38,466 nt of DNA from Ferrimicrobium sp. (GTDB lineage Bacteria; Actinomycetota; Acidimicrobiia; Acidimicrobiales; Acidimicrobiaceae). The stretch spans positions 1 to 38,466 of the forward strand of contig NZ_DAHXOI010000023.1 in the NCBI RefSeq assembly GCF_027364955.1. Reading direction: 5' to 3'. Under the pieces are notes generated by a model. That model was not told the DNA's origin, ran no database searches, and saw only the letters and a list, made by a program, of their open reading frames with translations. Position 1 is the first letter of the stretch; each line of letters begins with the position of its first letter. Positions 10,998-21,183 of the stretch are shown here, in pieces. The translations under genes were made by a program, and so were the position numbers.

Positions 10998-11333
10998 TTG
11001 AGAACATATGAGCTAGCCCTGATTACTGACTCCTCGCTTGAGGAGGCGGTTCGTGATGGCGTGACTGAACGAGTCGAGTCGATTATCACGACCGCTGGTG
11101 GGTCGATTGGCGAGAAGGCGACGTGGGGACGTCGGACCCTCATCTATCCCATCGCTCACCATCTTGAGGGATTCTATTCATTCCACCGGTTTCAAGCTGA
11201 ACCGGCGACGGTGACGGAACTCGATCGAGTTCTCTCTATTGCTGATGAGGTCCTCCGCTTCAAGATCGTTCGCCTTCCCGAGCGTGCGATAGAGTCAGGA
11301 AAGGCGCCGCTCCTCAAAGGAGCAGCGCGCTAA
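10998..11333 (+). CDS. rpsF: 30S ribosomal protein S6
   Basis: 111 residues, normal for S6. The sequence begins MRTYELALITDSSLEE and contains GRRTLIYPIAHHLEGFYSFHRF and EVLRFKIVRLPER, all diagnostic of S6. It binds S18 on the small-subunit platform. The start is a TTG at 10998, 5 nt after the strong site AGGAGG (10987-10992). It opens the run rpsF-ssb-rpsR-rplI-dnaB. The leader (10808-10997) contains a small hairpin TGTCA-TC-TGACA, but I do not recognise the S6:S18 autoregulatory leader motif with confidence. Confidence 0.97.
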   Translation: MRTYELALITDSSLEEAVRDGVTERVESIITTAGGSIGEKATWGRRTLIYPIAHHLEGFYSFHRFQAEPATVTELDRVLSIADEVLRFKIVRLPERAIESGKAPLLKGAAR

Positions 11334-11354: not shown

Positions 11355-11819
11355 ATGTCCGCCGGAAATACTGTTACCTTGATTGGCAATCTCACCAAGG
11401 AGCCAGAACTTCGTTTCACGTCGCAGGGTTTGGCTCAGACCACATTTTCCATCGCCGTCAACCGGCGTCGGATGAATCAGCAAACGCAGGATTGGGAGGA
11501 GTCCACCTCCTTTTTTGAGGTAGTTTGCTGGCGTGAACTCGCTGAGAATGTGGCCGAGAGTCTCGAAAAGGGATCTCGTGCCGTTGTCACTGGCCGCCTT
11601 GAACAGCGGACATGGGAGACCCCCGATGGTGACAAGCGATCCAAGATACAGGTCATAGCCGATGAGGTTGGTCCTTCGCTTCGGTGGGCGACCGCCCAGG
11701 TGACCAAGGCAGATCGGCGTACCGGAGGCGCTGGCGACGGTGGTGGCCGTAACGTGGCACAAGCGAGTGTGCCTGAGCCGTCGATTGGAAGTTTTAACTA
11801 CGATGAGGAGCCGTTTTAA
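11355..11819 (+). CDS. ssb: Single-stranded DNA-binding protein
   Basis: 154 residues. The OB fold occupies residues 1 to about 110: [66 protein letters not shown] short flexible linker of Gly/Ala/Arg follows, and the protein ends in the acidic tip DEEPF, the site that binds replication and repair partners. It protects single-stranded DNA at forks; the co-operonic DnaB helicase acts at the same place. It starts 21 bases after rpsF, with AGGAGA as ribosome site. Confidence 0.97.
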
Positions 11820-11821
11820 AA

Positions 11822-12232
11822 ATGGGTAAGAACGCGACGAAGAAGCGGCCGGTCCGCAAGGAGTCCGCTGATGCGCTCAAGAAATTTAAGAAAAAGCCAT
11901 GTAGTTTTTGTCTGAGCAAGACTGAATGGATCGACTATAAGGACGTGGAGTTACTCCGTCGCTACATCAGCGATCGCGCTAAGATTCGCGCGCGTCGAGT
12001 CACCGGCAACTGTACGCAGCACCAGGCCGAGGTGGCCAATGCCATCAAGGTGGCGCGCGAATTGGCCTTATTACCATATCTTGCCCGACCGACCAACGAC
12101 CGGGAGCGCGGTGCTGGCGGCGGTGGCCGCGGCCGCAACACTGACCGTCGTGTCCGTAATGAGGATGTCGATGACGTTGTCGATGTTGATGATGACACCC
12201 AAGAGGACGAGTCGCAAGAGGAGGAGGAGTAG
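11822..12232 (+). CDS. rpsR: 30S ribosomal protein S18 with long acidic C-terminal extension
   Basis: Residues about 18-92 are a normal S18 with the zinc-type ligands kept: C27 and C30 (CSFC), C64 and H67 (GNCTQHQ). S18 is usually about 75-85 residues, but this protein is 136. After the core (ending near LLPYLARP) come a Gly/Arg-rich linker and about 25 residues almost entirely Asp, Glu, Val and Gln ([22 protein letters not shown] within it). The reading frame is clean and the tail is followed directly by rplI, so this is not a sequencing frameshift into a neighbour. The GAG codons ending the tail also form the purine-rich site in front of rplI. The tail's role is unknown. Confidence 0.95.
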
Positions 12233-12234
12233 GC

Positions 12235-12684
12235 ATGGAGCTCATTCTCCGTCAACCAATCACCGGTCTCGGCCGACGAGGTGATCATGTCAGGGTCGCT
12301 GATGGGTACGCCCGCAACTATCTGCTCCCCAAAGGGTTGGCCCTGGTGGCCACACCAAAGGTAGCACAACAGGCAGAATCGATGCGCAAAGCCTCCGCCG
12401 AGAAGCATCAGCGCGAACTTGAGGCTGCATCAGAGCTGGCGTCGCAGCTGGTAGCCCTCGAGATCAGTGTTGCGAAGCGATCCTCACGAGATGGTAAGCT
12501 TTTTGGGTCCGTCACGACCGGCGAGATCGCTGAGAAGGTGACGGAACTCTCGGGTGTCAGCATCGATCGTCATCAGGTCAATATGTCGGAGCCAATCAAG
12601 ACGACGGGGACCTTCTCCGTTCCGATCCGGCTGCATCCTGAGGTCGAAGTGGCGATCAACGTCGAAGTCATCGCCGAATCATAG
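12235..12684 (+). CDS. rplI: 50S ribosomal protein L9
   Basis: 149 residues, the standard L9 length. The N-terminal rRNA-binding domain is clear: MELILRQPITGLGRRGDHVRVADGYARNYLLPKGLA. A long central helix (about residues 40-75) leads to the C-terminal domain with KLFGSVTTGEIAE. The ATG starts 2 nt after the S18 stop codon, and its Shine-Dalgarno sequence is the GAGGAGGAGGAG run that encodes the end of S18, so the two genes should be translationally coupled. Confidence 0.97.
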   Translation: MELILRQPITGLGRRGDHVRVADGYARNYLLPKGLALVATPKVAQQAESMRKASAEKHQRELEAASELASQLVALEISVAKRSSRDGKLFGSVTTGEIAEKVTELSGVSIDRHQVNMSEPIKTTGTFSVPIRLHPEVEVAINVEVIAES

Positions 12685-12696
12685 ACGAAGCATTCC

Positions 12697-14460
12697 ATGG
12701 CGGCGCGTGAGTCGAGAGCGATTAGTGAGACTCGGGTACCGCCACATAGCGTAGAGGCTGAGGACTCGCTCGTTGGGGCGATGCTGCTCTCGCGTGATGC
12801 GATTAGCGAAGCGGTCGAACTTGTCAAAGAAGATGATTTTTTTCAGCCTTCGCTGCATCATATCTTCGCTGCACTATGGCAGCTCTACACCGCTGGGGAT
12901 CCAACCGATGTGGTCTCTGTCTCGGATCAGCTCAAGCGTTCAGGGGTGCTCGAACAGGTAGGCGGGACGGAGAAGCTGTTGCTGCTACAGGCCTCGACGC
13001 CAGCCATTGCGAGCGCGGCACGCTACGCCCAGATTGTGCGTGACTACTCGCTCCTGCGACGGCTCATCGCTGCGGCCACCGAGATCGCTGAGCAGGCCTA
13101 TGCCTCACCTAACGATGTCCAGGAGATTGTAGACTACGCAGAGGCACGCATCTTTGATGTCGCCAAAGGGAATAATACCGACAATGCGGTGGTCATCCGC
13201 GATGTCCTGTGGGAGGCGCTCGAAGAGCTTGAGGAGCTTTACGCCCAAGGTGGGAACCAGACCAAGACGGCTTCCACAGGCTTTAGGGATCTCGATGAGA
13301 AGCTCTCCGGGCTCCATCGGTCGAACCTGATCATCGTAGGTGCTCGCCCTGGTATGGGAAAGACCTCTTTTGCGCTATCGATGGCCTCGAAGGTGGCGGA
13401 GAACTCGGAGGACCCGGTGCTGATCTTCTCACTCGAGATGAGTCGCATCGAGATCGGCCAACGTCTGCTGGCGGGAGAAGCGAGAGTCGACTCGATGAAG
13501 ATCCGTAGCGGGCGCCTCGTCGAGCGTGAGTGGGACCGTATCTCGCACGCTGCGGGCCGTTTGGCGGAGCGCAAGATCTTTATCGATGATGATCCCAATA
13601 TCACCGTGTTGGATATCCGCGCGCGATCGCGTCGACTGAAGGCTAATGAGGGGCTCTCACTGGTGATGATCGACTACCTCCAGCTCATGTCGTCCAGAAA
13701 GAACGTGGAGTCACGTCAGGTTGAGGTCTCCGAGATCTCGCGAGGGCTTAAGCTTCTCGCTCGAGAGCTCGATGTGCCGGTGATTGCGCTCTCTCAGCTC
13801 TCTCGTAACTTGGAGAGTCGTTCGGATAAGCGGCCGTTGTTGGCCGATCTGCGGGAGTCAGGTTGTCTGGCTTGGGATACGCACGTTCAGCTAGACGACG
13901 GCACCACGGAGACAATTGGGATGCTGTGGGCCAAAGGCACCCAGCAGTTTGGGCTGTTGTCCGCGACGCCAGGGGCCGAACCGTTGCATTCGGTTGCCAA
14001 ACGAGTGGTTGCCACTGGGGTCAAACCACTGGTCCGGATTGAGTTCGATGACGGCACCCACCTCGATGCCACCACCAATCATCCTCTCGCGACCCCGCAA
14101 GGATTTGTGCGTGTCAAGGCGCTGAAAGTCGGCGATCGGGTGATCGCTCTCGATGAGCGAGCGGCCACGATAACGAAGGTGATCGTTGCTCTTGCACCGT
14201 TACCGCCGGAGTTGGTCTTTGATATCGAGGTGCTCGAGAGTCACTGTTTCTACGCGAACGGTGCACTCGTGCATAACTCGCTGGAGCAGGACGCGGATAT
14301 CGTCATGTTTATCTATCGAGATGAGGCGTATCGTCCGGACAGCCCTGACCGTGGTGTCGCTGAGATTATCATCGCAAAGCACCGCAGCGGCCCTGTGGGA
14401 ACGGTACATCTCGCCTTTATGGAGAACTGGGCGCTTTTCGCCGATATCGCGCAAGGATAG
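12697..14460 (+). CDS. dnaB: Replicative DNA helicase DnaB, interrupted by an in-frame intein
   Basis: The spliced helicase would be 449 residues, normal for DnaB. The N-terminal DnaG-interacting domain begins at PPHSVEAEDSLVGAMLLS. The RecA-like motor has Walker A GARPGMGKT (215-223), the Walker B region VMIDYLQLM (about 324) and the ISRGLKLLARELDVPVIALSQLSR segment. At LLADLRESG the frame enters a 138-residue intein (residues 390-527) and returns at SLEQDADIVMFIYRDE, the conserved end of the ATPase core. DnaB loads on and unwinds the fork, so growth requires intein splicing. It is the last gene of the rpsF operon, 12 bases after rplI. Confidence 0.97.
   Translation: MAARESRAISETRVPPHSVEAEDSLVGAMLLSRDAISEAVELVKEDDFFQPSLHHIFAALWQLYTAGDPTDVVSVSDQLKRSGVLEQVGGTEKLLLLQASTPAIASAARYAQIVRDYSLLRRLIAAATEIAEQAYASPNDVQEIVDYAEARIFDVAKGNNTDNAVVIRDVLWEALEELEELYAQGGNQTKTASTGFRDLDEKLSGLHRSNLIIVGARPGMGKTSFALSMASKVAENSEDPVLIFSLEMSRIEIGQRLLAGEARVDSMKIRSGRLVEREWDRISHAAGRLAERKIFIDDDPNITVLDIRARSRRLKANEGLSLVMIDYLQLMSSRKNVESRQVEVSEISRGLKLLARELDVPVIALSQLSRNLESRSDKRPLLADLRESGCLAWDTHVQLDDGTTETIGMLWAKGTQQFGLLSATPGAEPLHSVAKRVVATGVKPLVRIEFDDGTHLDATTNHPLATPQGFVRVKALKVGDRVIALDERAATITKVIVALAPLPPELVFDIEVLESHCFYANGALVHNSLEQDADIVMFIYRDEAYRPDSPDRGVAEIIIAKHRSGPVGTVHLAFMENWALFADIAQG
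13864..14277 (+). mobile_element. DnaB mini-intein (138 aa, no homing endonuclease)
   Basis: The intein begins with Cys1 (CLAWDTHVQLDDG, block A), has block B with the T-x-x-H signature (TTNHPLATPQGF), block F (LVFDIEVLESHCFYANG) and ends VHN, followed by Ser as the +1 extein residue. All catalytic residues for splicing (Cys1, block-B His, penultimate His, terminal Asn, +1 Ser) are present. Blocks C-E and H of a LAGLIDADG endonuclease are missing and the gap between the splicing halves is short, so this is a naturally minimal intein that cannot home on its own. It sits between RESG and SLEQDAD, the same site used by the cyanobacterial Ssp DnaB intein. Codon use looks like that of the host gene. 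Confidence 0.95.
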
Positions 14461-21109: not shown

Positions 21110-21183
21110 GCGGGCGTAGTTCAGCGGCAGAACATCAGCTTCCCAAGCTGAGAACGCGGGTTCGATTCCCGTCGCCCGCTCCA
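21110..21183 (+). tRNA. tRNA-Gly (anticodon CCC)
   Basis: Acceptor stem GCGGGCG pairs with CGCCCGC (21173-21179), discriminator T, then encoded CCA. The anticodon arm is TCAGC-TTCCCAA-GCTGA, giving anticodon CCC. The D arm GTTCAGCGGCAGAAC and T arm CGGGTTCGATTCCCG are complete. The 3' half is the attachment site for the integrated element that follows; the gene is intact despite integration. Confidence 0.96.
21146..21181 (+). other. attL: tRNA-Gly 3' half
   Basis: AGCTGAGAACGCG followed by GGTTCGATTCCC and the acceptor 3' strand through base C21181. It matches 25472-25507 at 35 of 36 positions, and covers the anticodon-stem 3' strand to the acceptor end, a standard tyrosine-integrase crossover region. 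Confidence 0.85.

Follow-up and report, generated by a model that had tools for sequence, protein, structure and literature searches.

A gene-encoded acidic tail on ribosomal protein bS18 in one clade of the Acidimicrobiia

It is uncommon for a core ribosomal protein to differ in architecture throughout a whole class. In Escherichia coli the C-terminal tail of S6, the partner of S18, is acidic, and in gamma-proteobacteria the bS6 tail is glutamylated by RimK. According to the accessible portions of two reports on Pseudomonas, the C-terminal glutamates of S6 affect the proteome and colonisation (PMC4741518, PMC7343187). Extensions of other ribosomal proteins are described from Cutibacterium acnes, where uL22, uL4, bS16 and uS5 carry solvent-exposed C-terminal additions (PMC10085706, accessible text), and in the Bacteroidia a pocket on the platform, composed of bS21, bS18 and bS6, hides the anti-Shine-Dalgarno (anti-SD) sequence (PMC9976891, accessible text). 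For the acidic S18 tail of the clade treated here, no description was found in the open-licence literature.

The S18 locus and its tail

The locus lies in a stretch of 38,466 nucleotides from Ferrimicrobium sp. (assembly GCF_027364955.1, contig NZ_DAHXOI010000023.1, positions 1 to 38,466, forward strand), the whole of which is referred to as the window; its features are collected in Table 1. The open reading frame, as read from the sequence, runs from an ATG at 11822 to a TAG stop at 12230-12232 and encodes a genuine bS18 in the operon context of that protein, the gene order being rpsF-ssb-rpsR-rplI followed by dnaB. The Pfam family PF01084 covers residues 34-84 (80.1 bits, cut-off 21) and the NCBIfam family TIGR00165 covers residues 21-87 (93 bits, cut-off 38.75). 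A CxxC motif plus C/H ligands place the protein by sequence in the C+ (zinc) form of bS18, metal binding being predicted only, and S18 is single-copy at E<=0.001 in this 3.08-Mb genome (estimated 97.6% complete). S18 proteins without the CxxC zinc ligands (C- form) occur in several tailed families (L050, L053, L043, L052, L141, L144). Elsewhere in the window, dnaB (12697-14460) contains an apparent mini-intein at about residues 390-528, with weak intein profile matches, and a tRNA gene is found at 21110-21180 (Rfam RF00005).

Table 1. Features of the S18 locus, with positions in the window
Feature	Position	Strand	Basis
rpsF (bS6, partner of bS18); C-terminal extension past the core, without acidic tail	10998..11333	+	ORF and profile matches
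ssb (single-strand binding protein), between rpsF and rpsR	11355..11819	+	ORF and profile matches
rpsR (bS18 with C-terminal extension, 136 aa)	11822..12232	+	Frame including stop; profile matches
bS18 core, residues 1-91, with zinc-ligand-like C27, C30, C64, H67	11822..12094	+	Sequence and profiles
Basic R/G-rich linker, residues 92-113	12095..12160	+	Composition
Acidic end, residues 114-136, predicted disordered	12161..12229	+	15 D/E of 23 residues, 0 K/R
rplI Shine-Dalgarno sequence in the last Glu codons of rpsR	12219..12227	+	Two AGGAGG
rplI (bL9), start 2 nt past the S18 stop	12235..12684	+	ORF and profile matches

The homologous part of bS18 stops at the motif LLPY plus about five residues, and bS18 proteins habitually end soon afterwards; here 50 residues follow LLPY. 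As this shortness is a habit of length with no curated cut-off, the protein remains a bS18. Solved S18 sequences are at most 104 aa long among the matches listed (60 of 72). Past LLPY come a few residues like those of a normal C-terminus, then an Arg/Gly linker and then the acidic end, so that the acidic tail behind a Gly/Arg linker read by the initial annotation is real. Sequencing error and absence from near relatives, named there as possible objections, find no support: the tail stands at the same place in all six same-genus genomes searched, which counts against a frameshift or a misplaced stop, and throughout the order as set out below.

The 81 tails of the order contain 567 Arg and 39 Lys residues and lack Cys. 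The stretch of 22 residues at positions 5-26 past LLPY has a net positive charge in 66 of 81 tailed sequences of the order and in 30 of 32 from the rest of the class, and the last 20 residues are free of K and R in 66 of the 81 order tails; as a whole, 78 of these tails are net negative and three are not. Tail acidity falls with genomic GC (r -0.48), and the two loci of lowest GC have low values of 0.15 and 0.25. An AlphaFold2 model built from 29 aligned sequences (mean pLDDT 64) gave pLDDT values, in blocks of ten residues, of 71-88 at residues 21-90 as against 41-48 at residues 101-136; the tail therefore has no predicted fold and is predicted to be disordered.

The end of the tail also carries the translation signal of the next gene. 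AGGAGG occurs twice, at 12219-12224 and 12222-12227, placed 10 and 7 nt ahead of the rplI ATG. The suggestion of the initial annotation that the terminal Glu codons double as the rplI Shine-Dalgarno (SD) sequence applies clade-wide, since that SD lies wholly within S18 in 101 of 112 tailed loci but in only 2 of the 42 loci of the class that lack a tail. Among these 42, any rplI SD is present in 5, and the rplI start typically overlaps the S18 stop (median gap -4); in other classes an rplI SD is present at 17 of 38 loci, never inside S18. SD sequences ahead of rpsF, ssb and rpsR are used alike with the tail (101/107, 91/110 and 90/113) and without it (41/41, 33/42 and 36/40 in the tail-less class), and the change is therefore local to the S18-L9 junction. 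Within the tailed loci Glu makes up 44% of the last five codons, where E/(D+E) is 0.85 and GAG 80%, versus 17-19% Glu and E/(D+E) of 0.52-0.55 in the 25 codons before them. The SD therefore shapes the tip of the tail alone; it accounts for about the last five Glu-rich codons and no others.

Distribution, origin and sequence evolution

The comparison of S18 across the Acidimicrobiia that the initial annotation had proposed, with S18 ends measured by alignment to the S18 core, places the tail in one clade. Within the same order, 83 loci were read and a tail of 33-98 aa past LLPY is present in 81 of 81 complete S18 genes (the count excludes the contig-end loci L118 and L133, a split gene in G027, and G020 and G024, which gave no S18 match). 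Among 75 loci from the rest of the class, the residues past LLPY number 52-104 in 32, 15-29 in two and 14 or fewer in 41. These represent 75 of 85 genomes with a match, the other ten all belonging to family f32 with open frames of 96-108 aa; two further genomes of the class gave no S18 match. In the phylum's other classes 134 genomes gave a match, of which 42 were read, namely the 22 best-scoring loci and 20 chosen one per family, some of the latter picked for a long open frame; one has a long tail (L231, itself such a pick), three have 15-29 residues and 38 have 14 or fewer.

A tree of 194 of the 198 closed rows, including 112 of the 113 tailed rows of the class, was computed from S6, the S18 core, SSB and L9 with the tail columns excluded (a quick tree under a simple model, with SH-aLRT as its sole measure of support). 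It unites the 112 tailed rows in a single clade (SH-aLRT 92), with one change of state and the tail-less family f31 as sister, and no loss of the tail is seen among these rows and their many families. The tail is thus most simply explained by a single gain at the root of one clade within the class. Given a single origin, the tailed genomes together amount to one evolutionary event, and the co-occurrence with features of uL22 and S6 described below counts as one correlated gain. In the sister family, locus L185 has a 24-aa basic RG extension of S18 with no acidic end, a possible intermediate state. The tail of L231 (family f67) is acidic and 74 aa long, and this locus, which stands outside the tree, is probably a separate gain.

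The tail codons were compared in 16 disjoint pairs. Pooled, they differ by 265.7 synonymous changes over 565.5 sites and by 306.3 replacements over 1777.5 sites, which gives a pN/pS of 0.367 (Fisher p=6e-43); two of the 16 pairs have tail values of 0.75 and 0.90. Within the same genus, where the pairs are not independent, the core has a pooled pN/pS of 0.033 and the tail one of 0.233. Single-step tail replacements in the 16 disjoint pairs alter the charge class in 26 of 99 cases versus 48% expected, and the tail is retained at locus GC from 0.40 to 0.75. The substitution pattern shows that the tail codons are under purifying selection, and together with the conservation of charge it shows that the tail is translated and selected for its charge, which is kept while the letters drift.

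A second charged tail accompanies that of S18. A long uL22 tail is present in 29 of 29 S18-tailed genomes read and in none of 31 from tail-less families, the sister f31 included (several rows were read by eye, 30 of the 37 genomes of one set were covered, and the S18 state of the 31 tail-less rows was partly taken from the family). The last 30 residues of the uL22 tails are net negative in 26 of 29, and the other three (L351, L352, L367) end lysine-rich; some of the tails contain His-Asp repeats. In the Ferrimicrobium genome itself the uL22 tail (L250:18584-19339, contig 8) is 135 aa long, basic and then acidic, and none of 18 other ribosomal proteins recognised by eye in the main ribosomal protein cluster carries an acidic tail. 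The charged S18 and uL22 tails have not been lost in any genome read of the clade. The uL22-rpsC junction was considered as a second tail-born SD and rejected, as an SD overlaps uL22 in 23 of 29 tailed and 23 of 31 tail-less loci.

The S6 of this locus ends ...ESGKAPLLKGAAR, and the bS6 tail of the RimK system is absent from it. Across loci the C-terminal extension of S6 has a median of 19 aa with an S18 tail (n=108) versus 3 aa without (n=42), and an acidic tail on S6, taken as 20 aa or more with a net charge of -4 or below, occurs in only 3 of the 108 S18-tailed loci. Outside the clade, ten loci have an acidic S6 tail, and their S18 ends are 3-20 aa long and not acidic. A strict either/or between acidic S6 and S18 tails fails on the three loci with both, and exclusion is therefore claimed as a tendency only. 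RimK, considered as a partner of the tail, shows no association with it: the RimK family TIGR00768 exceeds its cut-off in the Ferrimicrobium genome, and across the sample in 5 of 19 genomes with the tail and 12 of 21 without it (the S18 state of four of the 21 being taken from the family), with weaker matches in all 40 genomes searched. In genome G000 two adjoining RimK-like ATP-grasp matches lie at 257968-259364 of contig 1, and they are paired in G012 as well.

Possible functions of the tail

The function considered best, with a likelihood somewhat short of even, is that of an electrostatic shield or brush. The tail would act by electrostatics: its basic linker would lie against rRNA or S18/S6, and its acidic end would be a tethered polyanion in competition with RNA. 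During assembly it might shield the basic S18 from non-specific RNA contacts, and on the 30S subunit it would form a negatively charged brush over the solvent face of the platform. In its favour count the clade-wide distribution and single-clade tree, the charge-conserving replacements, the predicted disorder, the uL22 and S6 extensions, the lack of acidic tails on the 18 other proteins and the Pseudomonas findings on S6; against it count the three order tails without net negative charge, the relation of acidity to GC, the three lysine-rich uL22 ends, the weight of a single origin and the 29-sequence basis of the model. The similar tail on uL22, a protein of the large subunit in published structures (PMC10085706, accessible text), suggests a general job in the same clade and speaks against a function confined to mRNA leaders. 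The latter had been the idea of the initial annotation, in which the tail could affect leader selection; the ribosome would then favour or disfavour leaderless or SD-led mRNAs. A tail near the platform and mRNA exit fits the accessible accounts of the S6/S18 region (PMC9976891, PMC10085706), and bS21, the usual platform neighbour, has no match at E<=0.001 in any of 120 genomes of the class (positive in 6 of 14 controls). The location thus favours an effect on leaders, and so might a missing bS21; but replacement of bS21 was rejected as the cause of the tail, because it is missing with and without the tail across the class sample and cannot explain presence or absence. The leaderless-type signal is, moreover, no higher in tailed genomes. 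In a rough, low-powered test of 13 genomes (seven tailed and six tail-less, with 400 kb of the Ferrimicrobium genome and 100 kb of each other, a home-made gene finder and 43-302 scored genes per genome) the TANNNT excess at -11 to -15 ahead of run-first genes had a median of 0.11 in tailed (range 0.00-0.18) versus 0.23 in tail-less genomes (-0.02 to 0.38), a difference in the opposite direction (p=0.15), and SD excess did not differ (p=0.53), the tailed sample G154 having no SD excess at all. The 19-base pattern of the 16S 3′-end that holds the anti-SD is found once, unchanged, in the Ferrimicrobium genome (7 of 16 genomes matched), and SD use elsewhere in the operon is alike in both groups. 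A link to leader selection was therefore not borne out, and is now very unlikely.

The remaining explanations bear on single parts of the evidence. An acidic end that is mainly a by-product of the rplI SD, with GAG kept for AGGAGG and the remainder tolerated, would account for the position of the SD inside S18 and for the Glu-rich tip, but an SD needs about three codons against tails of 33-104 residues, Asp codons give no SD and yet are about as frequent as Glu at residues 6-30 from the end, and tail replacements conserve charge; this is improbable. Neutral drift of the C-terminus once a stop codon had been lost would suit the wide variation in tail sequence and length and the two pairs of high pN/pS, but absence of loss in 112 rows, the pooled pN/pS with conserved charge and retention at locus GC from 0.40 to 0.75 leave it the least credible of the explanations. 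An RNA-mimicking tail could also alter the binding of S6-S18 to its own operon leader; in E. coli the S6-S18 pair represses its operon through a leader motif (PMC10931766, accessible text), but no Rfam leader family reaches the gathering score in the window, upstream of rpsF included, and the uL22 tail would be left unexplained, so the probability of such a change in autoregulation is slight. More weight, though it is still unlikely, falls on the acidic S18 tail as a counterpart of the RimK-glutamylated bS6 tail, acting to tune the binding of S1 and the choice of mRNA. S18 pairs with S6, mobile S6 and S18 tails are reported to touch S1 in E. coli (PMC7343187, citing Loveland and Korostelev; accessible text), and the S6 of E. 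coli is extended at its C-terminus by 40 aa, which lie at the 30S solvent side (PMC10085706, accessible text), the PDB chains named as unmodified and fully modified bS6 isoforms measuring 131 and 135 aa. S1-domain matches are present in 21 of 21 genomes, including a 422-aa frame with four of them in the Ferrimicrobium genome, and the tendency of acidic S6 and S18 tails to exclude each other points the same way. Against this stand the comparable tail on a large-subunit protein, RimK-family matches that do not track the tail, and most tail-less relatives, which have neither tail. Taken with the results against the leader idea, the uL22 tail therefore favours the shield or brush over the S6-tail counterpart.

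Comparison with described systems

The single gain kept clade-wide, the embedded start signal and the uL22 tail together make this clade a clean natural experiment on charged ribosomal tails, and they show that a protein tail and the translation signal of the next gene can evolve together. Ferrimicrobium belongs to the Acidimicrobiia, and as the clade includes a Ferrimicrobium-named relative, the ribosomes of a cultured member may be within reach of mass spectrometry.

Acidic tails on the same pair of proteins occur in loci of Chloroflexi name, where three (L099, L100, L107) have giant acidic S6 tails of 143-190 aa and a 12-aa S18 end, and three others (L110-L112) have acidic S18 tails and an S6 without one (L111 being cut at a contig end and L112 partly masked). 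They share an acidic tail with the present clade but differ in sequence build, and as they belong to another phylum they are most likely separate gains. The anti-SD pocket of the Bacteroidia involves the same neighbourhood, S18 and S6 included; here, by contrast, bS21 has no match, SDs are common in the operon and there is no sign of anti-SD hiding. In PDB entry 8crx, which we take to be the C. acnes ribosome, S18 measures 79 aa. The extensions reported from that species resemble the S18 tail in being lineage-specific, terminal and often disordered, but that of uL22 is 43 aa long as against 135 aa in this genome, and the accessible text names no bS18 extension among them (PMC10085706). A close likeness is also seen to the RimK/bS6 tail of E. 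coli and Pseudomonas, which is flexible, acidic and C-terminal, ends in Glu and belongs to the S6-S18 pair of the 30S platform. The tail differs in residing on S18, in being wholly gene-encoded and in its R/G linker, the S6 extension of the clade being rarely acidic. A broader proposal, offered as a speculation with a limited chance of being right, is that the ribosome of this class once gained charged disordered brushes, on S18 at the platform and on uL22 at the solvent side of the 50S subunit, with the longer S6 C-terminus as companion; such built-in electrostatic control of assembly, or of crowding between ribosome and RNA, would amount to a gene-encoded and permanent analogue of polyglutamylation by RimK.
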